Shown: positions 780-12,663 of the stretch, one piece after another | How positions within the stretch are numbered: the first letter of the stretch is position 1 | Layout of the letters: each line of letters begins with the position of its first letter | From: Periconia sp. R9002 | Taxonomy: Eukaryota > Ascomycota > Dothideomycetes > Pleosporales > Periconiaceae | Length of the DNA stretch: 12,943 nucleotides | Assembly (NCBI GenBank): GCA_023627715.1 | Contig: JAMAHW010000238.1 | Coordinates: forward strand, 1-12,943 | Direction: 5' to 3' | The notes under the pieces: model-generated | What the model was told of the DNA's origin: nothing | Database searches by the model: none | Seen by the model: the letters and a program-made list of their open reading frames with translations, nothing else | Made by a program: the position numbers and the translations under genes

Positions 780-3000
780 CTAAGCTAGTTCTACAGTTTG
801 ACATTTGGAAAGGTCCATTGCCTCTCCATCCATGATACCGTCGACATAAGCTTCGCTGATGATCTGATACTTCCCGCCACTTTGACACCGAAGAATGAAT
901 GGTACTTGTGCGCCCCTGATTAATGCAATGACATCGCCTCGATTAACATGCTCAGAACTAAGGACTAAATGTCCCTTATTCGTAACGCATGGAAGTCTTC
1001 GCAAGCTTTTCCCCATAATTTCGGAGCCAAGCCTTCGATTTGCCCCAATGCTATCCATGGACATGTCTCTGTAACCATTGTCATCGAAGTATTTTTCGAT
1101 CTTATTTTTGAAAAAGCTTGGCTTAACATGTCTTGCTCCATTCCGAAGAAGACAAACAGCATCACGAAAACGGCTCTCTCCTACTCTTGTCAGTCGAGTT
1201 CGATCGAACCCAACTTCTCCGATTGAAGTTCTCGCCGCCACCCGTATTCGATCACCAAAATTCTGGTAATCTCTTCCACCATGGTAGGTAAGTCGAATAA
1301 TCTTAACTAGCCACTCTATTGGCCACAAAAGCGTGTCTTGGGTGGGCACCTCATGGCTAGAAGATCGACCCGGGAAAGTCCCAACTGCGGATATCTTGTC
1401 GTATATGTGGCAAATCACAGAGATTCCCTCGATTTCCCCGTCCTTCCTCATAATAGTGACACTAGGATGTTGCGGTTCCGATCCGGACGCGCTGAATCGA
1501 GGATAGATGGTAATGTGATCATCTTCGATATCTTGTAATTTGTATGTCATGGATCGAGACCAGTCTGGCACCCAAGATGGTAGGTCGGACGGCGGTTCAG
1601 AGAGTTGACAGAATGACAGAAGCGATATATGCCCTTGCTCTAGCAGAGCCGCCATGGCGGTCGTAAATGTTTCTTCCTTGGATTTCCCATAGTCGGGGAC
1701 GACGCCCTTAAGCTTCAACTCTTCACAATCTGCTGCGATGCTTAACAAAGCATATATTTTACCTCGTACATCTGTTGAATCCAAGTGATGAGGACCGTGG
1801 CGTTGAATATTGTGGCTGCCAACGCATGTTAAGCGGAGTAGAGCTGCTAGCGGGAATCTCCAAAATCTATATACTTGCCACGAAGATAGCATGACCAAAG
1901 GTCTATGTTGAAAACATGACTGAAATATTTCGAGGTGATATGGCCTTAACCGTGGGATATCGAGAAATCTTGATGCGATAGTGGACCATAAAGCATAATA
2001 TGCGTTTAGGGCAGCACTACATCGGCGTCGCGTAATCCGCTTAGCTCCGCAGGTGAACTCAACCTTTTCTGGAATAGCAACTTCTTGAAGAACCCATATT
2101 CGCCCCCACCAGGGCCTAGTGAAAAGACGCTTCATATTGGCGATCGGTAACACATTCCGGTCATCGTTCCAACCACTGATGGAATAGAAAAGGTCTTGCA
2201 ATGCCTCTCTAGTTACTCTGAGTGTTCCCCCATCGGGCGCTTCGATGAAGTAGAACCTTGGTTGGTGTACGTCACGGATTTCTCCGGATATGGGTACCAT
2301 CTCTTGCCAAATTGCTCGATATGGGTTCGGGCTTATGTCCATGCCACAATCCTCTGCTTTCGCCCCTAACATATTAAGATAATCCATGACTGAGTCACTA
2401 CTGTCATCTGCCGGACCAAGCCATACAATAACCTTGCATGCTTCTTGGTAAATATTGGCCATAAGACCAACTTGATAATTCTTCTCCTCGATATCTGATT
2501 GGTTAATGCAAACAGCGTCGATCCAGAAGTACAGGGACTGCGTGAGGTTCCTCTCGGGAAATGTCTCTCTAAGTAAAGCCTTCTGACTCTCTCTTAGCTG
2601 TCGAAGAGCTCCTTCTAGGCTTCGTGTGATATCTATGAGCTTGCCGTCGCAAAGAACAGGGATAGTATCTTTAGAGTTACCCCAAGTATATGAAAGCGCG
2701 ATGTAATCTGGAGTGCTTCGAAGGGGCCATGTTTGAAGGCTAAAATGAATCATTTCTTCTCGTCGTCCATATTTAAGGTTGAGTAGGCGAATGCTTTGAG
2801 AACGCAAGCTATCTGAGTATTTAAATTTCGCCCTAAAATTAGTGTTAGAAATCGATTCTACTTATACTTATAGTTCTTTAAGTAGGAGGTTGTAGGAACG
2901 TCTCGCAGAATGCGGGGGGCCAATGGTAGAGAATAAAGGGGAGACGATACTCTTCTACATGCTTTCCTGGTAAGGATAAAAATCGCTTAAAACATGCCAT
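780..3000 (-). CDS. HET-domain protein, HET-6 type
   Basis: This is a heterokaryon-incompatibility (HET, PF06985) protein. HET proteins trigger regulated cell death after fusion of unlike hyphae; the biochemical mechanism of the domain is not settled. The order of motifs is: SIRLLNLKYG near residue 30, YIALSYTWG at about 60-68, WIDAVCINQ at about 120-128, IVWLGPADD near 155, WWGRIWVLQE at about 258-267, LPSWVPDWS in the middle, and a C-terminal GDVIALIRGAQVPFILR...YVDGIMDGEA block. These are the landmarks of the HET-6(OR)-like class, and both ends look complete. The long open frame (from 2807) begins at a TTG, and HET-like sequence lies upstream of its first ATG, so I propose a first exon 3000-2951 with ATG at 3000. 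An intron at 2950-2833 then joins in phase, giving 700 aa. The HET assignment is near certain; the first exon is an inference. The gene lies between repeat copies 1 and 2, with its 3' end facing the NACHT relic. Confidence 0.88.
2833..2950 (-). other. predicted intron of the HET-6-type gene
   Basis: Reading the minus strand, the donor is GTATCG after exon 1. The branch site TTCTAAC (complement of 2844-2850) lies about ten bases before the acceptor TTTTAG, a typical fungal 3' end. Length is 118 nt. Exon 1 (3000-2951) ends in codon phase 2, and exon 2 starts with the single base needed to restore the frame, reading on through KFKYSDSL into SIRLLNL. The 3' end of the intron is convincing. The donor is only moderate, so exon 1 could differ. 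Confidence 0.5.
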
Positions 3001-3477
3001 TACGGAGTATATCGATAGGCTATTAGAAAAAGGAGTATTTCGGAACAGTAGCAGATGTGAGGGGTGGAAATGGTGAATTTTGAGGTAGTAGGAAACAGTT
3101 AATAGGCACAAGTTAGACTCGGGATGATTGTACTGGCGATTGATTAGCCCTGTTATCTCGTTTTTACGTCTTTAAATAATTATGATCCCTTTATCATACT
3201 TTATATTCTTGACCAGATTTTTGAATTTCGAATAGAAATCCGCCACATTTTCTCAAGGAAATTAGGCAGCAACAATCGTTCACCGGAGGAATACTGCTTG
3301 GTAACTTGGTGGGGCGAAGTGCATGATTGGCTTGAGGTGCGTGCTGCTGATTGCACAACTCGTAGTGTGGCGCGGGAAGGCTTACGTGCGGCGGCCAAGT
3401 TGCGGTGGGAGGCGAATCCAGAGCCGACTAGACTAAATATGCGTTTATCTTGAGAAGTCAACGAACACCTTGGTAAC
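3001..3477. other. upstream region of the HET-6-type gene
   Basis: This stretch is noncoding as far as I can see. It is AT-rich near the gene and more GC-rich towards repeat copy 2. It should hold the promoter and 5' leader of the leftward HET gene. I see no clear TATA box in a usable position. A minus-strand open frame across 3201-3638 has low-complexity, non-conserved-looking composition and runs through the repeat; I do not regard it as a gene. Confidence 0.45.
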
Positions 3478-3536
3478 GCTAGCAGGGAGGACGGCCGACC
3501 CGCACCGGCCCTGACCTTGCGCTGGAGGCGCTCGAT
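3478..3536 (-). repeat. boundary repeat, copy 2 (inverted)
   Basis: The reverse complement of 3478-3521 matches copy 1 over about 43 bases. Similarity to copies 3 and 4 runs further outward, to about 3536, as ATCG followed by CGCCTCCAGCGC. Copies 1 and 2 face each other 3.4 kb apart. Inside the repeat the two flanks do not resemble each other, so the inverted repeat itself is only about 44 bp. Confidence 0.8.
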
Positions 3537-4197
3537 TTTTCGGTGTGGATGAACAGAGATGTTGACGTGTGCATTGGTGTTTCGGGAGAAGGCAGGCGAA
3601 GAAACGGCCGCCAAGAGGTTTGAAGCACAGGCCATCATCTGGTTAGATCTCGAGAAGTTAAAATCTAGGACCTGCCCTCGGAACTTGTTCCACTCCGGGG
3701 GACCAAAAGGTGGTCCGCTGCAAGACCCAAAATGGGTTCCCTATTCTAGGAACAACGTTAGCCCAAGTTTGGATCGCGGCCAGATTTTAGTCATGCCTAG
3801 GTTGATTAGGGTAGCTTGTTACATAACCGTCCTGAACGCGCCTAGGTTTTCTGTGGGTGGTTTCAGTTTAGTTCCCGCAGTGGGGCCTAGTCTAAGCCCG
3901 AGATGTAATGTGTTGAGAGCTGGACCGTGCACACTTATTCCGATCCACGCAAAGAATTAGGCGCCACTAGAGCGCAGAAGGCAGCGTTTTCATACCTTGC
4001 GTGAAGAGAGGGGTTAAAAGTAGCTAAAGTTAGGGCTCAGCCTCGTGGTTGCCTGGACCTACCAACCTGCTTGGGCTAAACTCGTGACTGCCAAGACTGC
4101 TGCCTGAACAGCGACTCGTCTCTGAGACTATATCCCCCAAGCTTTGTGTTTCGTGCGAACATACCACGACTCTTCCTCTGTAAAGATCAGTCGACAA
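3537..4197. other. spacer before the second HET gene
   Basis: I see no gene I can support. A plus-strand ATG frame at 3559-3960 (133 aa) begins with a hydrophilic, protein-like piece (REKAGEETAAKRFEAQAI) and then turns into sequence typical of chance translation. It could contain a degraded exon, but I do not recognise a family. The last couple of hundred bases must hold the promoter and leader of the downstream HET gene; no strong core motif stands out. Confidence 0.4.
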
Positions 4198-6360
4198 ATG
4201 GGCACCACAGGAGATGCGTTTCACTTACAGGCTTTATGCGAAACGTGCAAGCACATAAACCTGAAGGCTCTCAAGCATGCTCACGGTTTCGTCCATCTAC
4301 CATCACTTAAGTCGCTTATGGACAGCACAAGCGACTGCGATCTATGTAAATTGATTCTGGAAGCTTGTGGTCATTATGCGGACATGCAAGGACTGAAAAT
4401 CACTGCAGAAACCAGGCAGTTAGGACCTGTTCGACTTTTTGCGACAGGTAGGGAAGGGGTATCCTCCGGAATGGGGTGGCGTGAACTTGAACCCCTTGAA
4501 GAGCAGCAACTGTCTCCTAAAGTTATTGTGATGGTGGGCAAACTGGATCAGCACTTGTCAATGGTCCCGTCTAGGTCGATTCTTCTTGAAATGTACGCGC
4601 TAAAAGGTATGTTCTATCAACTTAAGTACGGACTGGTGACTTCTGACTTACTTCCAATAGGTTCTGCTGCTGTACGGTCGGGGGTTGCTGAGCTTAGAGA
4701 GACCGAGGGTCATGCTGCATGCGAAGCGAACTTTTCTCGGCTGAAGAAATGGCTTCAGTACTGCAGACGCTACCACATGATTTGTTCTTTGGAACATATT
4801 AAACCACTCATCGGGCCTTCACCCATGCCAAAACGCCTTATTGACCTTGGCATTCCAAATATTTCACCAGCCACACCGAGGATCATAGACACAAGAGGGC
4901 GCCAGGAGCAGTATGTGGCTCTTAGCTACTGTTGGGGCCCAACCAAACATCTTTGTACCACTAAAAAGAACGTTCGAGACATGGAAAAGTCTATCCCTAT
5001 TGAGTTACTTCCCCAGACGATAAAGGATGCCTTCTTAGTCGCTCGAAATGTGGATGTGCGGTACATTTGGATTGATGCTTTGTGCATCATCCAGGATGAC
5101 GACGAGGAGTGGAATATCGAGGCCAAACGAATGGGAGCAGTCTACGCAAACTCATACTTCACCATCGCAGCAACGTGTGCAGAGCAGGCAGAAGACGGTT
5201 TCTTGAGGCCCCGCACGCTCAAAAAAGTCGCCGTACCGCTCCGTGTTGACTCCGCTTCGAAAGTCGATGGCAACGTATACTTCAGAAACCCATCCGATTT
5301 CCTTCATGACCATCAAACTTATGTGCTCGAGAGTCCACTACTAAGAAGAGCTTGGGTACTACAAGAAACTCTCCTCTCGCGCCGCACAGTACACTTCTCG
5401 AGTAAGCAAATTTACTGGGAATGTCGCTGTGCATTTTTTGCAGAGGACGGTATGACAGAAGACGCTGATTGTCGGGAACATGCACACGAATTTCTGAATA
5501 TGATTAGCATAATGAAAGGAGGGATTCATTCTCAGCAGCTTGCCGAGATGTTCTTCCGATTATGGGGTAGCATCTTGCTGCGGTACTCAAATCTTTCCAT
5601 TACCCGACCCAGCGACAAGCTTCCTGCGCTTTCAGGGTTAGCCTCACTAGCGGAACGGGTTCTTGGGTACCGATATCTGTACGGCATCTGGAATTTAAAT
5701 CTCCCATACGGACTCTTTTGGCACCCTGTGCATCGCCCAATGGTTCACACCACAGAATGGAGAGCACCTTCGTGGTCATGGGCTGCTTTGGAAGGTGCAG
5801 TTACGTTCGAGAAGTATTTCCCGGAAGAGGACTCGAGGATTCGTTTGATCGAAGGATCGGATGACAACCAATTACGAGGAGTGATGAGAATAACAGGCAA
5901 GATCCATTCATGCTATGTCTCTCCTGATCTTCAGCCACAGCCAAAACCTTGTCGAAGCGACCGAAAGCTTAGATCCATACCCGTCACACCAGCTGAGTAT
6001 GCCTTTGCAGAAGACGAGTCCAAGCTTACTGAATATCGCACTTCCACAGGTACTTTCTCTTACAGTCTCTACGGCGAAACGCCAGGCGTTTCACTACTTC
6101 GGATGACAGAAGGTCGACTGATGAGCGCACAAAACGCTGGTGAGCGTAATATATGCAGATTCGACGGAGATAGAGGTAATGAAACGGAATTTTTCTTCCT
6201 TAGGCTTTCATGTGCAGATCGAATGGAGTTCCATCATTGTCGCGGATTGCTTCTGCGCCGTGTGAACAGTGCGATAGATGCATATGAACGTGTGGGCATC
6301 GGGTGGTCCACAGACTCGCTGTGGCATACTACATCTGAAACGCTCGTTACGCTCATTTGA
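4198..6360 (+). CDS. HET-domain protein with N-terminal Cys pairs
   Basis: This is a second heterokaryon-incompatibility protein, of a different class from its neighbour. The start is the first ATG in frame (MGTTGD, 4198); the frame stays open upstream only by way of a TTG. Near the N-terminus are C14-x2-C17 and C47-x2-C50, the paired cysteines common in this class, probably a metal site. After removal of the 54-nt intron at 4607-4660 the protein is about 702 aa. The segment MYALKG-SAAV...LKKWLQYCRRYHMIC leads into the HET domain: YVALSYCWG near residue 221, IWIDALCIIQDD near 272, YANSYFTIAAT, GFLRPR and RRAWVLQE near 365. The C-terminal part has the usual WRAPSWSWA motif. No frameshift or missing block is seen, so the gene looks intact. 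A role in allorecognition or cell death is inferred from the family. Confidence 0.9.
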   Translation: MGTTGDAFHLQALCETCKHINLKALKHAHGFVHLPSLKSLMDSTSDCDLCKLILEACGHYADMQGLKITAETRQLGPVRLFATGREGVSSGMGWRELEPLEEQQLSPKVIVMVGKLDQHLSMVPSRSILLEMYALKGMFYQLKYGLVTSDLLPIGSAAVRSGVAELRETEGHAACEANFSRLKKWLQYCRRYHMICSLEHIKPLIGPSPMPKRLIDLGIPNISPATPRIIDTRGRQEQYVALSYCWGPTKHLCTTKKNVRDMEKSIPIELLPQTIKDAFLVARNVDVRYIWIDALCIIQDDDEEWNIEAKRMGAVYANSYFTIAATCAEQAEDGFLRPRTLKKVAVPLRVDSASKVDGNVYFRNPSDFLHDHQTYVLESPLLRRAWVLQETLLSRRTVHFSSKQIYWECRCAFFAEDGMTEDADCREHAHEFLNMISIMKGGIHSQQLAEMFFRLWGSILLRYSNLSITRPSDKLPALSGLASLAERVLGYRYLYGIWNLNLPYGLFWHPVHRPMVHTTEWRAPSWSWAALEGAVTFEKYFPEEDSRIRLIEGSDDNQLRGVMRITGKIHSCYVSPDLQPQPKPCRSDRKLRSIPVTPAEYAFAEDESKLTEYRTSTGTFSYSLYGETPGVSLLRMTEGRLMSAQNAGERNICRFDGDRGNETEFFFLRLSCADRMEFHHCRGLLLRRVNSAIDAYERVGIGWSTDSLWHTTSETLVTLI
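4607..4660 (+). other. 54-nt intron that keeps the frame open
   Basis: The donor GTATGT at 4607, branch site TTCTGAC ending near 4647 and acceptor CCAATAG at 4660 are all close to fungal consensus. The length is a multiple of three and there is no in-frame stop, so the unspliced frame reads through with 18 extra residues. Removing it joins ALKG to SAAVRSG, which restores the spacing usual in HET proteins before the W-L-x2-C motif. I therefore regard splicing as the normal state. Confidence 0.75.
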
Positions 6361-7085: not shown

Positions 7086-7438
7086 TAGATGTTGCGGAAA
7101 CTACCCAAGTAAACGTAGCCGGCCTTTGGAGCACACCCCGAGGTTGTAGAACGGCCGAGTCGGAAGCTGATTGCGGTTTCGCGGTTTCGATGCCGGACGG
7201 GTTCGTGTCGTGCTGTCATACGGTCAAACGACCAGCGGCTCCCTTACATGAGCACTGCAATCTCTAGAGCCATGGAGGCGTGCTCTAGCTTGAGCTCTGA
7301 GGGTTACTGGGAGCTTTGGATTGTGTATGTTCCGGAAGGATGAGTACTAGCGGAGCTGTGATGGTGGCCATGCTTGGTAAGATTCTACACTATTCGGAGC
7401 TGCGCACAGCACTCTCCTCTTCAGCCATGTCAACAAAC

Positions 7439-7743
7439 TATCGCCTCCGGCGCAAGGTCAGGGCAGGAACGGGTCGGCCATCTTCCCTACTAGCGGTGGC
7501 GACTAGTAGAGAGCTTTAGTTCTATTTGCTTGCTGCAGGCAACTAGGTGGCATATTTTATATAATAGCAAGAATATGCAAGGCACCAGGCCTTCCAGCTA
7601 TATAAACTTTAAGAATAATCTATCATTCATTTTTAATAATGCAGTAGTTTTTCACGCCCCGTAGTGGACAAACTGCGCCCATCTCAACGGCTGGTCCCAT
7701 TCCTTTTCCCGGACTGCACTTACTGCCTCGTGTAGCGCTAAAG
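7439..7743 (+). repeat. left arm of ~300-bp inverted repeat
   Basis: The arm pairs with 11645-11945. Its outer part (7451-7494) is copy 3 of the boundary repeat, starting CGCAAGGTCAGGGC. The middle is the 3' flank of the CHAT gene, about 80 percent alike between arms with small indels and mostly transitions. The inner 92 bases (7652-7743) are the 3' end of the CHAT coding sequence and are identical in the two arms. Similarity stops abruptly at 7743/11645. Confidence 0.9.
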
Positions 7744-10291
7744 CAATATCTTTATCCTCCATTTCCCTATCCTCCCCAAAGAGTGTGCCATAGAACGTTT
7801 TTGCGACCTCTACACAGACTGCATCTGCCGACGGCCACTGACAGCCGACGACATGTGCGAATCCAGCAACCTGGAACCCGCTAACAATGTGAATGACCTC
7901 GTCTTTTAGCCTCACTGCTCCGTTTTCTGCTGTTGAACAAGCTGAAAGGTATGCAAGCCTTGCATGTCCTAACTTTAACTCAGAGACACTCTGCACCGTC
8001 ACTGTGTCCTGGATAAGACGTCCAGCGCTGTCCTGCTTCTGGAATACTAGTCCGCTCTTTGATGGATCCACATAGTTTGTGAGTCCATGGCAAGCAAAGT
8101 GAGCGATGCTACAATGTCCTAGGCTCTGAAAAATACGGTAAGCACTTGATTGGTCATGTATGTCCAATTTCAAGTGAGTATGAAGCGCTTCCAAAATTGC
8201 TTCTTTTTCGCCTTCGACTCCGCCAAGGGTAGGTAAACCTGGAGTAGTTTTCATGGTCGCCAGCAATACAGTGTCACCGCAGACATTGCTATTCCGCAAT
8301 CGTTCTCGGCTATATGCGAGGGCCTTAATGGACGGCGTGTAAGACGAAAGTACCCTTTTAAAAAGATTCCTGTCCGATCTGGGCCTATGGCTTCCTGCGG
8401 CGTGGAAGGGCATTGAACTAGCCAACCCAGTTCCGATCCACCAGATCCTTGGGAGGTCTTGCTTCACCTGCTGCATTCTAAGTCCGCATGCCACGAGAAC
8501 GTCTCTCACACAGACCTGCCAGAGCCAATCCAGGTACTCCCGTAACTCCTTATTAATAGAGTCGAGGCCTTCTCGAGCTGTATTCCACTGTCGATTCAGC
8601 CATCTCTTAGCGTCTGACGCTAACAATGAGGGCAGCTTTATACTCTTGATTTCTGACGACGTAACGACTATCGCATGGCTACCGATAGTGGTCACATTAA
8701 TCACAATAATAGGCCCTCCCGTTGCACATGCACGCATTTCCGCTGGTGTCAGGCCCAGGAGGAATCGATCGTAACCAGGAATATTGCGGATGTCTTGGAT
8801 GCATAACTCAAATGCTGCTACACAGTCTCGGCGCCATTGTTGAGCATATTTGATAGTAAGCAGGTCTTCTAGCCCAGAAAGAGGAGCATTTATCTCGTCT
8901 AGGAGTTTTTGGAAACGAGCAGCTATTTCTGGATGTGCCTCGCTCAGGGTAGAGACGCCGCTTCGGTCACCGATGAGTTGACTGAGGATGACCGTCCTTC
9001 CTCTCTCGAGGATCTCCAGCGCGTGCTCTGGCAACTCAAGTCGGAGATAAATCGAGCATGCCGAGGCGGCGAGTCCAGAGAAATGTGACACGGCATACTG
9101 TTGATCACTACGCTGAAGAGATCTGTTCGAAACGGTTGGCAGTAGATTGATAGCATCGATAGCAAGTGCTGCGGCAGGATTGAGTTTTCCTTGCAAGCCC
9201 AGGATGTTCACACACCGGGCAGCAGCCTGAACACGATAGAAAGAGATGCTGGTATCGCACTTCCAGGCACTTAGAAACAAGTCGCCGGACATCTCCAGGT
9301 CGGCCATGTTGCCTGTTCGCTCGTACCGGCATTCAAGGTGAATTCCAAGGTTGTTCAAGTAGCCCGTCCGATCTGGATGGTTGTCTGGGGTTAAGTCGAC
9401 GGCCTGCTGCACTGCTTGGTTAGCCGCTTCCAGGTCAGCTATGTCGCCTGTTTGCTCATACTGGCGAAGAAACTTGTTTCCAAGGTTGTTTAACCTGCCT
9501 GCCCGATCTGGATGGTTGTCTGGGGTTAAGTCGACGGCCTGCTGCGCTGCTTGAATAGCCGCTTCTAGGTCAGCTATGTTGCCTGTTCGCGCGTACCAGC
9601 TTCCAAGATTACTTCCAAGGCTGTTCAACCAGCCCGCCCGATCTGGATGGTTGTCTGGAGTTAAGTCGACGGCCTGCTGCGCTGCTTGAATAGCCGCTTC
9701 TAGGTCAGCTATATTGCCTGTTCGCGCGTACCGGCTCTCAAGATGACTTCCAAGGTTGTTCAAGTAGCCCGCCCGATCCATATAGTTGTCTGAGGTTGAG
9801 CTGACAGCCTGCTGCGCTGCTTGTATAGCCGCTTCTAGGTCAGCTATGTTGCCTGTTCGCGCGTACCGGCTCTCAAGATGACTTCCAAGGTTGTTCAAGT
9901 AGCCCGTCCGATCAGGATGGTTGTCTGGGGTTAAGTCGACAGCCTGCTGCGCTGCTTGTATAGCCGCTTCTAGGTCAGCTATGTCGCCTGTCCGCTCGTA
10001 CCGTGTTCTCAACGTTATTCCATACAAAGAATGAAGACCCGAAAGTGAAGCGGATTCTGTAGGCGTGTAGTCAACCACCAACCTTGCGGCCATGGCCACG
10101 GCAGAATTGATTGAATCCAAATCGCCTGTACGTTTATGCTCCTTGTATGCTTGTATTGTCATGGACACCAGAAGCTCTGTTGGCTCAATGCCGTTGCCGT
10201 GCATTAGCCTGGAGGGTTCGGGCAGTTGTGAGAGCTCGCCGCTCTCCATCGCCATGGGGTCATCCGTCATCGCTGTACGCTCATCTGTCAT
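7652..10291 (-). CDS. TPR-CHAT cysteine protease
   Basis: This 879-aa protein has an ATG start (MTDERTAM). Residues 101-325 are five 45-residue TPR units (TG(D/N)IADLEAA ... PDR-G-LNNLG), with a diverged unit before them and the start of a sixth (326-333). A helical linker holds HALEILERGR near 423. The C-terminal half is a CHAT domain, a caspase-like protease fold: HFACHG at 731-736 supplies the catalytic His (H735) and LSACSTA at 782-788 the Cys (C785), both intact. SGFQVAGFAHVVGCQW and a closing LHEAVSAVRE...WAQFVHYGA follow, as in complete CHAT proteins. There is no NACHT or NB-ARC, so the TPR region probably acts directly as the sensor. The gene is head to head with the gasdermin-like gene, which suggests that protein is its substrate; this is inference. 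The family call is firm. The last 29 codons and stop recur exactly at 11647-11736. Confidence 0.92.
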   Translation of the reverse strand: MTDERTAMTDDPMAMESGELSQLPEPSRLMHGNGIEPTELLVSMTIQAYKEHKRTGDLDSINSAVAMAARLVVDYTPTESASLSGLHSLYGITLRTRYERTGDIADLEAAIQAAQQAVDLTPDNHPDRTGYLNNLGSHLESRYARTGNIADLEAAIQAAQQAVSSTSDNYMDRAGYLNNLGSHLESRYARTGNIADLEAAIQAAQQAVDLTPDNHPDRAGWLNSLGSNLGSWYARTGNIADLEAAIQAAQQAVDLTPDNHPDRAGRLNNLGNKFLRQYEQTGDIADLEAANQAVQQAVDLTPDNHPDRTGYLNNLGIHLECRYERTGNMADLEMSGDLFLSAWKCDTSISFYRVQAAARCVNILGLQGKLNPAAALAIDAINLLPTVSNRSLQRSDQQYAVSHFSGLAASACSIYLRLELPEHALEILERGRTVILSQLIGDRSGVSTLSEAHPEIAARFQKLLDEINAPLSGLEDLLTIKYAQQWRRDCVAAFELCIQDIRNIPGYDRFLLGLTPAEMRACATGGPIIVINVTTIGSHAIVVTSSEIKSIKLPSLLASDAKRWLNRQWNTAREGLDSINKELREYLDWLWQVCVRDVLVACGLRMQQVKQDLPRIWWIGTGLASSMPFHAAGSHRPRSDRNLFKRVLSSYTPSIKALAYSRERLRNSNVCGDTVLLATMKTTPGLPTLGGVEGEKEAILEALHTHLKLDIHDQSSAYRIFQSLGHCSIAHFACHGLTNYVDPSKSGLVFQKQDSAGRLIQDTVTVQSVSELKLGHARLAYLSACSTAENGAVRLKDEVIHIVSGFQVAGFAHVVGCQWPSADAVCVEVAKTFYGTLFGEDREMEDKDIALALHEAVSAVREKEWDQPLRWAQFVHYGA
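9317..9991 (-). repeat. five tandem 135-bp units encoding TPRs
   Basis: The units encode residues 101-145, 146-190, 191-235, 236-280 and 281-325 of the CHAT protein. All have exactly the same length and very similar DNA; for example, GGCCTGCTGCGCTGCTTG recurs between units. The second unit differs in its middle (SSTSDNYMD instead of DLTPDNHPD). Near-identity among units points to recent expansion or homogenisation, a habit known from repeat domains of fungal NLR-type genes. Confidence 0.9.
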
Positions 10292-10763
10292 GTTTAAAAA
10301 CTATCGTTCAACTTCATTCGATGTGCCTGGAGAGAGGGTCACAATGTGTGTCGACTGTGTTCATGATACGAGATGTACTGACTTTCAGCTTACTTGTGGC
10401 GCTGTTGTGGCGCTGTGCATGCGTGTCCAGCGAAGCAAAATGGCTGAGCGCAGCCACTGTGGTATGGCTTACTTTTTCAGTCGTAACCAGGATCTGCCCG
10501 CATCTCTCATTAAAATGTATTACAACAAATTACTTTGGATAGTGAACGAGACAAATTGATTTTCGGCTCGCTTGCTCAGCTGTTGTGAGGGGGCTGTGCA
10601 TGTGGCGCAGGCATTTGCCTCGTATTCAGCTGCGGAGGCTGAGTATCTAGTGTGTCACTTTAGGCAGGCAGTAGGAGAAAGAAGGTATTTAACCTGCAGA
10701 AGGTTCCCTGTGATTCCTGTTCCACCTCAAATCAAGGCCTTTGTCATTATTATCCCTGCAGTC
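10292..10763. promoter_or_regulatory. shared divergent promoter region of the CHAT and gasdermin-like genes
   Basis: These 472 bases separate the two start codons and must hold both promoters. Two imperfect direct repeats occur, GCTGTTGTGGCGCTGTGCATG at 10401-10421 and a copy at 10579-10602 with three extra bases. They are possible sites for a common regulator. TATTTAA at 10686-10692, about 75 bases before the plus-strand ATG, is a possible TATA element. Overlapping open frames on the plus strand here show no conserved features. Confidence 0.5.
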
Positions 10764-11621
10764 ATGACACTGAGCATTATTTCATCAGACTTTTTCCTCC
10801 CTCTAGACTCCGTCCAACTTGGACGGCTCGTAAAGTCCGTCGAATTCCCTACCCTAAACTACCACGACCCACCCTACCCGCAGGCTCCTGAAGGAAAGAC
10901 TGTCGTTCGCGGCCAGTATGTAAGGGTATCGCAAGGCGAAAACAGTGCCGGCTTTACGACAAAGCTGGCATCACTCATGTCATCCGGGTTCTCAAAGCGA
11001 GCGAACACCAAGGTCCGAATCGAGACGAATGCGGTCAAAACCTACACACTAGACAATTCTACAGCCTGGTTCATGAAGGCTACAAGCTTTGACGATACTA
11101 GAAGATGGATAGAGCGCGCTCTTGGTGGGAATGGAATTTACCTCGTCACTGGCTTCCATACCGTGACAGACGCTCGCATTGTGCATGAGTCGACTGAAGG
11201 TCACCAGCTTGCCGGTGAGGTGACTTCCCCCGCTGGCTTGTCGCTCGCTGCCATTGGTGCTATTGCACCACTCGGTGGCATCCTTGATCCGGCTGTGGCT
11301 GCGCACCACAGCATTCTGGATGGAGTCAAGACCCAGTTTATCGCGCCTGGGGAGCAAATTTGTGCCTTACAGTATTGCAAAATCTCCTATCGTTGGCTGC
11401 ACAGCAAGAATATTGACAATCTCAAACTGTCCAAAGCACCGCGGTGGACGGCCAAAGAGAGCTGGCGGAAGGCTAGTGTTGATGAGGCAACAGATGAGCC
11501 CGATATCCTTGAGGTGGCGACTGAGGAATTGGAAGAGCTAGAGGGAGAGTGGGAGAGAGAAGAAGGGGAAGGAGGCGAGATCTTGCTGATACAGTCTGCT
11601 GAAGAAAGCGATGGGTTTTGA
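10764..11621 (+). CDS. gasdermin-like pore-forming protein (putative)
   Basis: This 285-aa protein is read from the first ATG of its frame. Near the N-terminus is FFLPLDSVQLGRLV (10-23), followed by a PPYP loop, a basic strand (KRANTKVRIETNAVKTYTL, 78-96), AWF (101-103), RRWIERAL (113-120), the amphipathic strand IYLVTGFHTVTDARIV (125-140) and a Gly/Ala-rich hydrophobic segment (158-176). I associate this pattern with fungal gasdermin-like proteins; length agrees with HET-Q1 (about 280 aa). After a basic stretch (KAPRWTAKESWRK, 224-236) comes a tail in which 20 of the last 47 residues are acidic. Fungal members are held inactive by a short C-terminal tail that a neighbouring protease removes; the released N-terminal part forms membrane pores. 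The divergent CHAT protease gene fits that role. No signal peptide is seen. The family call comes from pattern memory plus context, not from an alignment. Confidence 0.68.
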   Translation: MTLSIISSDFFLPLDSVQLGRLVKSVEFPTLNYHDPPYPQAPEGKTVVRGQYVRVSQGENSAGFTTKLASLMSSGFSKRANTKVRIETNAVKTYTLDNSTAWFMKATSFDDTRRWIERALGGNGIYLVTGFHTVTDARIVHESTEGHQLAGEVTSPAGLSLAAIGAIAPLGGILDPAVAAHHSILDGVKTQFIAPGEQICALQYCKISYRWLHSKNIDNLKLSKAPRWTAKESWRKASVDEATDEPDILEVATEELEELEGEWEREEGEGGEILLIQSAEESDGF

Positions 11622-11644: not shown

Positions 11645-11736
11645 CTTTAGCGCTACACGAGGCAGTAAGTGCAGTCCGGGAAAAGGAATGGGACCAGCCG
11701 TTGAGATGGGCGCAGTTTGTCCACTACGGGGCGTGA
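11645..11736 (+). pseudogene. orphan 3' end of a CHAT gene
   Basis: This piece begins 24 bases after the gasdermin stop. It encodes LALHEAVSAVREKE and on to WAQFVHYGA and a TGA, exactly the last 29 residues of the CHAT protein. All 92 bases match 7652-7743 in reverse complement. It has no start codon and no catalytic residues. It is in the same orientation as the gasdermin-like gene but is not fused to it, because that gene's stop comes first. It marks either a lost second CHAT copy or the breakpoint of an inverted duplication. Confidence 0.92.
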
Positions 11737-11945
11737 AAAACTGCTATATTGTTAGACATGAACAATAAATTGTTCTTAGAGCTTACATAGCTGTAAGGCC
11801 CGGTGCCTTGCATATTCTTGCCACTGTATAAAATATGCCACCTAGTTGTGTGCGGCAAGCATGACTAAAGCTCTCTACTGGTTGCCACCACCAGCTGAGA
11901 GGGTGGCCGACCCGTTCCTGCCCTGACCTTGCGCTGAAAGCGATA
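11645..11945 (-). repeat. right arm of ~300-bp inverted repeat
   Basis: This arm is the reverse complement of 7439-7743. It runs from the orphan CHAT end, through a diverged 3' flank that shares CTTGCATATTCTTG and ATAAAATATGCCACCTAGTT, to boundary repeat copy 4 at about 11890-11933. Similarity reaches out to GCGATA at 11945. Together the arms enclose a unit of about 3.9 kb that contains most of the CHAT gene and the whole gasdermin-like gene. Confidence 0.9.
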
Positions 11946-12663
11946 TTTTTAAAGAAGATACAATTTGCCCCAAAAATGGGAAAGTGTCGTACTAAAATCC
12001 CTCAGCACGTAGCGAGAAGGACCTCGTAACGAGAACATTTCCACTGCCAAGCCATCTTATATCTCTCCACAAAGGTCTATCAAGATATACATGATAATAA
12101 TCGTTCTTTAGCTATCTCTTTACTAACTATTAATGTATAGAAGAAAACATCGTAGCGTTGGTAGCGCTATTGTCAATCTTGTAATCGCCTCAAAATCCGC
12201 TTCCGACGCTATACCCCTGTTCAACAACGAGTATTAACAAGCCTCTAGATTTCGGGACTATCATAAGGTTGTTTAGATATAAAAGAATGAACCTCAGAGA
12301 GTCTTAGGCTTCTTATACTAATGGTTGTGGATTCCGAGAGTTTCGCCGAGCAGAAAGAGGGCAGCTTCTGCTAAAGCATGTTTTTAGCACGCTTCGGCTA
12401 AGTTAGTGTAAAGAATCCGCCGTATTGAATTCTAGCGCAATCAGTCATCTGTGGCGCAGTGCCAAGGGAGTTTGTCTAGTTTGTTCGGTTTGTATGGTTT
12501 GTGCAAGCCAGAATAGAACAGGTGTCCGGTTCGCTGCCTGGAAACGGGCGCTCGCTGCCTCTGGCTGCCTTCTACTTACACCATCGTAGTACAATCAACG
12601 ACAGTGAGCTAATATGGATGTAGCTAGTAGAGCACTGCCAGACTCAAGTGGCAAATATTTTAT
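11946..12663. other. right flank, no gene recognised
   Basis: This region is moderately AT-rich with stops in all frames at short intervals. A small imperfect hairpin lies at 12369-12389 (TGCTAAA paired with TTTAGCA across seven bases), too weak to call a terminator or an RNA gene. I found no tRNA-like structure and no further copy of the boundary repeat. Confidence 0.4.

Follow-up and report, generated by a model that had tools for sequence, protein, structure and literature searches.

Does a protease gene that stands head to head with a gasdermin-like gene form, together with it, a device for killing the fungal cell that carries both? The question is raised by contig C238 (JAMAHW010000238.1) of Periconia sp. 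R9002, whose 12,943 bp constitute the window analysed here, part of a genome of 42.9 Mb in 267 contigs. The window encodes a TPR-CHAT sensor-protease and, divergently, a gasdermin-like protein of 285 amino acids (aa), and we consider it very likely that they are a two-gene regulated cell death module composed of a TPR sensor, a CHAT protease and a gasdermin executioner. Support comes from a protease domain with its dyad, a predicted gasdermin fold, the pairing of both genes in other fungi and an invariant arginine in front of an acidic tail. Both open reading frames lie where the sequence-only reading, an earlier interpretation made without database searches, had placed them, with their start codons 472 bp apart:

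7652..10291, minus strand: TPR-CHAT sensor-protease gene (one uninterrupted frame of 879 aa)
10292..10763, no strand: shared intergenic region, delimited by the coordinates of the two frames
10764..11621, plus strand: gasdermin-like gene (285 aa)

The length of 285 aa is counted from the ATG (the list of open reading frames gives 349 aa from an upstream TTG), and the intergenic region presumably holds both promoters. In the mechanism that we propose, the TPR array would act as the sensor, binding a cue of non-self, infection or stress, and the bound cue would render the CHAT cysteine protease active. The protease would cut the gasdermin, most probably at Arg235 within a (D/E)xxR motif, and so take off its acidic C-terminal tail; the freed N-terminal part would oligomerise in membranes, probably as pores, and kill the cell.

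The protease carries the intact CHAT domain, with its HFACHG and LSACSTA motifs, and the preceding TPR units that had been read from the sequence:

7655..8539, minus strand: CHAT protease domain (residues 585-879; PF12770, E = 1.5e-36)
7937..7939, minus strand: codon of the candidate catalytic Cys785 (LSACSTA; Cys in 41/42 aligned proteins, Ser in 1)
8087..8089, minus strand: codon of the candidate catalytic His735 (HFACHG; His in 42/42)
9297..10012, minus strand: TPR array (45-aa units, 5.3 copies)

The PF12770 match is complete and reaches 126.8 bits against a Pfam cut-off of 24, and the residue counts refer to an alignment (A4) in which the window protein and a single paralogue stand beside 40 of 120 listed relatives. 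The catalytic role of His735 and Cys785 is assigned from the CHAT/separase dyad as described in PMC9729208. By its profile match and His-Cys dyad the 879-aa protein is a member of the CHAT family, with predicted proteolytic activity. A 135-bp tandem repeat (5.3 copies, 86% matches) encodes the TPR array, and its five full units have pairwise DNA identities of 79-93% and vary at 19 of their 45 residues, mostly in the second half of the unit; in all, residues ~33-585 are predicted to form TPR-like helices. The proposal that this protease works without an NLR ATPase holds within the scope of the Pfam search, which lists 15 families for the 879-aa protein, NACHT and NB-ARC not among them. A Fusarium relative (P0164) does have a NACHT domain, that is, the same protease with an NLR ATPase. 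PADLOC returned the window protease only as a weak match (E = 0.0068). Overall, the protease model was structurally most similar to Csx29, the TPR-CHAT protease of type III-E CRISPR (Craspase), which has the same TPR-then-CHAT layout. According to PMC9729208, a guide-RNA complex switches Csx29, whose substrate is Csx30, whereas the window protease has near-identical 45-aa TPR units and its presumed substrate is the gasdermin. The catalytic part of separase also superposes on the protease model, with 3.1 Å over 315 residues (5fby_A).

The gasdermin-like nature of the second protein, first suggested from N-terminal and strand motifs, emerged again from structure prediction. With the AlphaFold2 model of the 285-aa protein (predicted template modelling score, pTM, 0.69; mean predicted local distance difference test, pLDDT, 69.9), Foldseek returned gasdermins first, with RCD-1 at the top and bacterial gasdermins among them, and in a second structural comparison gasdermins occupied ranks 1-21. 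By this prediction, made with middling model confidence, the protein has the gasdermin N-terminal pore-forming fold. Proof of the fold from sequence alone was sought in vain: no Pfam family exceeded its cut-off, a single-sequence search of the PDB gave no match and a profile search of the PDB failed too, so that the predicted fold was the one approach that revealed it. The short and very acidic tail is there as described:

11466..11468, plus strand: codon of Arg235 (E232-S-W-R235; Arg in 60/60), a candidate for P1 of the activating cut
11469..11618, plus strand: acidic C-terminal tail (residues 236-285)

Its 50 residues include 20 acidic and 2 basic ones, and we presume it to be inhibitory. 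The gasdermin relatives have the same length as the window protein, the closest named ones coming from Periconia macrospinosa (88%, covering 91% of the query) and Didymosphaeria variabile (81%, covering 81%). Another relative, P0029, a protein of 483 aa that its source names a nucleoside phosphorylase, covers 99% of the gasdermin at 52%; it may have been fused to a domain that also occurs in fungal NLRs, or the gene may be misjoined.

The side-by-side occurrence of the pair in other genomes, which the sequence-only reading had put forward as a check, was found. We compared contig sizes between 77 gasdermin relatives and the 120 listed of 1100 CHAT relatives, and in at least eight other cases exact agreement placed relatives of both genes on one contig, a lower bound to which a further 980 CHAT relatives outside the listing might add:

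Periconia macrospinosa, contig size 167,324
Fusarium solani, contig size 513,327
Scytalidium lignicola, contig size 42,891 (tags g11075 and g11074)
Pseudogymnoascus, contig size 63,059 (tags V495_04961 and V495_04960)
Cordyceps, contig size 44,558 (tags CDD83_9434 and CDD83_9436)
Three further shared contigs, sizes 5,296, 46,102 and 20,936

The named contigs span Dothideomycetes, Leotiomycetes and Sordariomycetes, and the locus tags of the pair are consecutive in Scytalidium and Pseudogymnoascus and two apart in Cordyceps. At least 8 of the 36 gasdermin contigs of at least 5 kb match a CHAT contig, and a control with sizes shifted by 1 to 100 gave 0.15 matches on average and at most 2. As judged from sequence, the window pair is a gasdermin-protease two-gene cluster, with a protease gene closer than 10 kb (472 bp) in the window and relatives of both genes on shared contigs elsewhere.

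Such clusters have precedents. Around 80% of fungal gasdermin genes are reported to be clustered with protease genes, 63% with S8 proteases and 19% near CHAT (PMC10197012). According to PMC12881547, ~17% of the cluster proteases are cysteine proteases, the proteases frequently carry TPR, ANK or WD40 repeats in direct fusion, clusters comprise two or three genes, and a TPR-bearing CHAT protease of Podospora activates its neighbour gasdermin. The fungal gasdermin/CHAT two-gene clusters, which both sources cover, were reported in Clave et al. 2022. The window shares with these clusters a gasdermin with a short tail (inhibitory in the clusters) beside a TPR-bearing CHAT gene; it differs in its lineage (closest named relative Periconia macrospinosa, Pleosporales) and has, behind the gasdermin gene, an inverted copy of the CHAT 3' end that may set it further apart. 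Because these reviews describe gasdermin/CHAT clusters, one of them functional in Podospora, the window pair looks like a further example of an already known kind of fungal gasdermin/protease gene pair. A further related system is HET-Q1/HET-Q2 of Podospora anserina: the sequence-only reading took HET-Q2 for a protease adjacent to HET-Q1, but as presented in PMC12881547 the two are idiomorphs, alternatives at one locus, and HET-Q2 is a serine (S8) protease, whereas the window has a CHAT cysteine protease and holds both genes together. HET-Q1 is said there to become active once a short C-terminal piece is removed, with a cut likely at F238, close to Arg235 of the window protein by residue number. 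RCD-1 of Neurospora crassa, the closest solved fold to the 285-aa model, is described as activated by co-expression of two variants instead of by a clustered protease (PMC10197012, PMC12881547), whereas the window gasdermin adjoins a CHAT gene.

Where would the protease cut? The region proposed from the sequence, residues 225-245, contains Arg235, which is kept in 60/60 aligned relatives at the head of the acidic tail. Three positions before it, Asp or Glu occupies 54 of the 60 sequences (Glu 38, Asp 16), the exceptions being Y (2), H, A, T and W. Across several gasdermin subfamilies (n = 38: the window protein, three paralogues, 24/30 of one protein listing and ten listed relatives, HET-Q1 and RCD-1 being left out), Trp228 is present in 38/38 and the residue seven positions after it is Arg in 37/38. 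The residues before this Arg are subfamily-specific: the CHAT-paired family has (D/E)xxR, gasdermins of the type found on contig C59 have (Y/F)LS(T/S)R↓G (8/8) and those of the type on C111 have HWGVR (7/7). One reading of these alignments is that the Arg may serve all of them as a common P1, with the preceding residues suited to the respective partner protease. Separase is reported to cut after EXXR (PMC9729208), a motif that resembles (D/E)xxR at gasdermin residues 232-235, which makes the latter a candidate separase-like cleavage site.

The other gasdermin loci of the genome enlarge this picture. Searches with three of the gasdermins returned the same four genes, on C238, C59, C111 and C141; two of these searches, run with proteins over the whole genome, gave in addition a single chance match containing stops (E = 0.58), and a profile of alignment A1, run against 1576 frames of at least 40 residues from the window and 12 loci, found only the known four. 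A query with one long caspase (Peptidase_C14 with a C-terminal extension) retrieved exactly four genes, on C59, C141, C175 and C158; a search for the C14 family adds C37 and C15 and misses C141, and PADLOC gave caspase matches for all four C14 proteins. The loci outside the window are composed as follows:

C59, 159925-163482, minus strand: TPR-CHAT gene (CHAT, E = 2e-35)
C59, 164513-166546, plus strand: long caspase gene (Peptidase_C14, E = 1e-17)
C59, 166727-167566, minus strand: gasdermin
C141, 48968-49861, plus strand: gasdermin
C141, 49999-51972, minus strand: long caspase gene (E = 1.6e-11)
C141, 52670-52825, plus strand: TPR frame, running off the contig
C175, 28347-29660, plus strand: CHAT frame
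C175, 29733-31841, minus strand: long caspase gene
C158, 21823-24650, minus strand: TPR-CHAT region, split into two frames
C158, 30888-32843, plus strand: long caspase gene
C111, 88596-89555: gasdermin of another subfamily (HWGVR), with an ankyrin-repeat gene ~3 kb away

On C59 the gasdermin lies 180 bp from the convergent long caspase gene, which in turn is ~1 kb from the divergent TPR-CHAT gene, and C141 mirrors this order and these orientations (gasdermin 137 bp from a convergent long caspase gene, followed by the divergent TPR frame), with any CHAT part beyond the contig end. The CHAT frame and the long caspase gene of C175 are convergent and 72 bp apart, and on C158 an NLR-like HET-TPR gene sits between the TPR-CHAT region and the long caspase gene. 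All four long caspase genes retrieved are thus beside TPR-CHAT (3) or TPR (1) genes, and two are also beside gasdermins. None of the 20 S8 protease matches of the genome falls on C59, C111, C141 or C238. Loci of the C59 and C141 type suggest a possible relay from CHAT to caspase to gasdermin, which has a bacterial parallel in the SAVED-CHAT protease that reportedly activates a caspase in type III CRISPR. A tentative extension, possible although on the unlikely side, is a cascade of two different caspase-fold proteases in which TPR-CHAT would cut and activate the long caspase and the caspase would cut the gasdermin, with subfamily-specific residues (DExxR-type for CHAT, (Y/F)LS(T/S)R↓G beside caspase) preceding the universal Arg; the window would then be the short form, in which CHAT cuts directly. 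Full-text searches of the literature listed no paper in which we saw a description of CHAT-caspase-gasdermin loci or of a (D/E)xxR site in fungal gasdermins, although Clave et al. 2022 may hold one.

Several observations weigh against a module in which CHAT cuts the gasdermin at Arg235. The gasdermin model is middling, with residues 146-186 under pLDDT 50, the Foldseek template modelling (TM) scores are low (0.28-0.33 by query length), and the PDB profile search, built on 60 sequences, missed RCD-1 and gave one match, a ubiquitin ligase (E = 0.72). The motif (D/E)xxR is not rare in these proteins, occurring at four places in the window protein, and position 232 is one of several alignment columns with at least 90% acid. 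Arg235 may be structural, because it is kept also in gasdermins that stand beside caspase genes or without a protease found nearby. On four of the six CHAT contigs (C158, C175, C84, C83) no gasdermin was found, and in the family searches the C111 gasdermin had no CHAT, S8 or C14 match on its contig; the three frames near it that were run against Pfam encode an ankyrin protein, a GMC oxidoreductase and a methyltransferase. Finally, K670 of Csx29, which PMC9729208 equates with separase D2151, the Asp that reads the P1 Arg, aligns with Val827 of the window protease (V in 39/42, A in 3/42), although the adjacent residue 828 is an acid in 39/42. A separase-like S1 pocket was sought and not found at the aligned position, where the window protease has Val827 and separase D2151.

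In one alternative, the protein is a true gasdermin that is not cut by this CHAT: it would act through interaction of allelic variants, like RCD-1-1/RCD-1-2, or be released by another protease, and the CHAT would cut something else, such as a caspase-like protease. The two solved folds closest to the model are indeed RCD-1 proteins, reported to act by co-expressed variants, CHAT genes stand beside long caspase genes on three contigs of this genome, and the absence of the Arg-reading Asp at the aligned position points the same way. We nevertheless regard this alternative as improbable, since both genes have stayed together in three fungal classes, no caspase gene lies in the window, an invariant Arg with an acidic tail suits proteolytic release, and the Podospora TPR-CHAT is reported to activate its neighbour gasdermin (PMC12881547). 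That the two genes are chance neighbours, functionally unlinked within an immune-gene cluster, seems extremely improbable: two HET genes do share the 12.9-kb contig and HET genes are numerous in the genome, but the shared contigs (at least eight against a control mean of 0.15) and the consecutive tags of Scytalidium and Pseudogymnoascus speak against it. The cell death module remains the reading that we favour, and the predicted fold and the neighbourhood in other genomes, either of which could have spoken against the interpretation drawn from the sequence, both uphold it.

The surroundings of the pair bear on its trigger and its integrity:

780..2807, minus strand: HET-domain gene (PF06985, E = 1.4e-26)
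4144..6360, plus strand: HET-domain gene (PF06985, E = 1e-33)
11645..11949, plus strand: inverted copy of the CHAT 3' end and downstream DNA (other arm 7435-7743)

With the two HET-domain genes adjoining the pair, the contig consists wholly of immune-type genes; the genome has 152 HET matches at E ≤ 0.001. The inverted copy starts 24 bp behind the gasdermin stop and holds the last 29 codons and the stop of the CHAT gene (11647-11736) and ~210 bp beyond, so that the two arms flank the pair. They differ at 0/92 positions of the coding part and at 36/213 of the non-coding part (Fisher p = 1.1e-6), a coding identity that alternating use of the arms, or a short conversion tract, could explain; one idea is that an inversion between the arms would leave the CHAT 3' end intact either way. 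C158 is similarly arranged: behind the caspase gene there, the 3' end of that contig's CHAT gene recurs in inverted form (81% over 600 bp). A short dispersed repeat of ~40-100 bp also occurs in the window, at 88-130, 3477-3530, 7442-7495 and 11893-11949. Among the matches listed, it was counted at 56 places in the genome, 24 of them within 5 kb of HET, NACHT, CHAT, C14 or gasdermin genes (2/17 for the S8 control), and contigs numbered above 100 hold 46/56 repeat copies and 30/150 HET genes. We do not claim the repeat as the mark of a transposon carrying the pair, as a shared location on small contigs may explain its distribution and no transposase search was made.

Might the inverted duplication have rearranged a decaying locus whose activity is lost? 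The CHAT 3' copy behind the gasdermin gene and the dispersed repeat copies around the pair would fit, but the two genes retain open frames of full length, the protease keeps its dyad and the gasdermin relatives do not differ in length, and we hold decay to be highly improbable. Recruitment of the pair for allorecognition, as a het locus with strain-specific versions that bring death upon fusion of unlike hyphae, appears rather unlikely. It would agree with the adjoining HET-domain genes, with a repeat array and an inverted duplication that make the locus prone to rearrangement, and with the precedents of het-Q1/het-Q2 and of Aspergillus fumigatus hetB, described as idiomorphic and encoding a CHAT protein (PMC12881547, PMC11138114); against it, most fungal gasdermins are not allorecognition genes according to PMC12881547. 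Allorecognition bears on the trigger, not on the mechanism, and is compatible with the cell death module.

With the window, the few sensor-protease/gasdermin modules known from eukaryotes gain a compact and intact pair from a Pleosporales-like fungus, and the cut predicted after Arg235 is both sharply defined and cheap to check. Most of what goes beyond the ordinary concerns the invariant Arg and this genome's CHAT-caspase-gasdermin loci. Should cleavage take place at the universal Arg, a single residue would account for the activation of several gasdermin subfamilies by different proteases, and if the CHAT-caspase-gasdermin loci form a cascade, fungi would possess a protease relay like that of animal pyroptosis, built from other parts.

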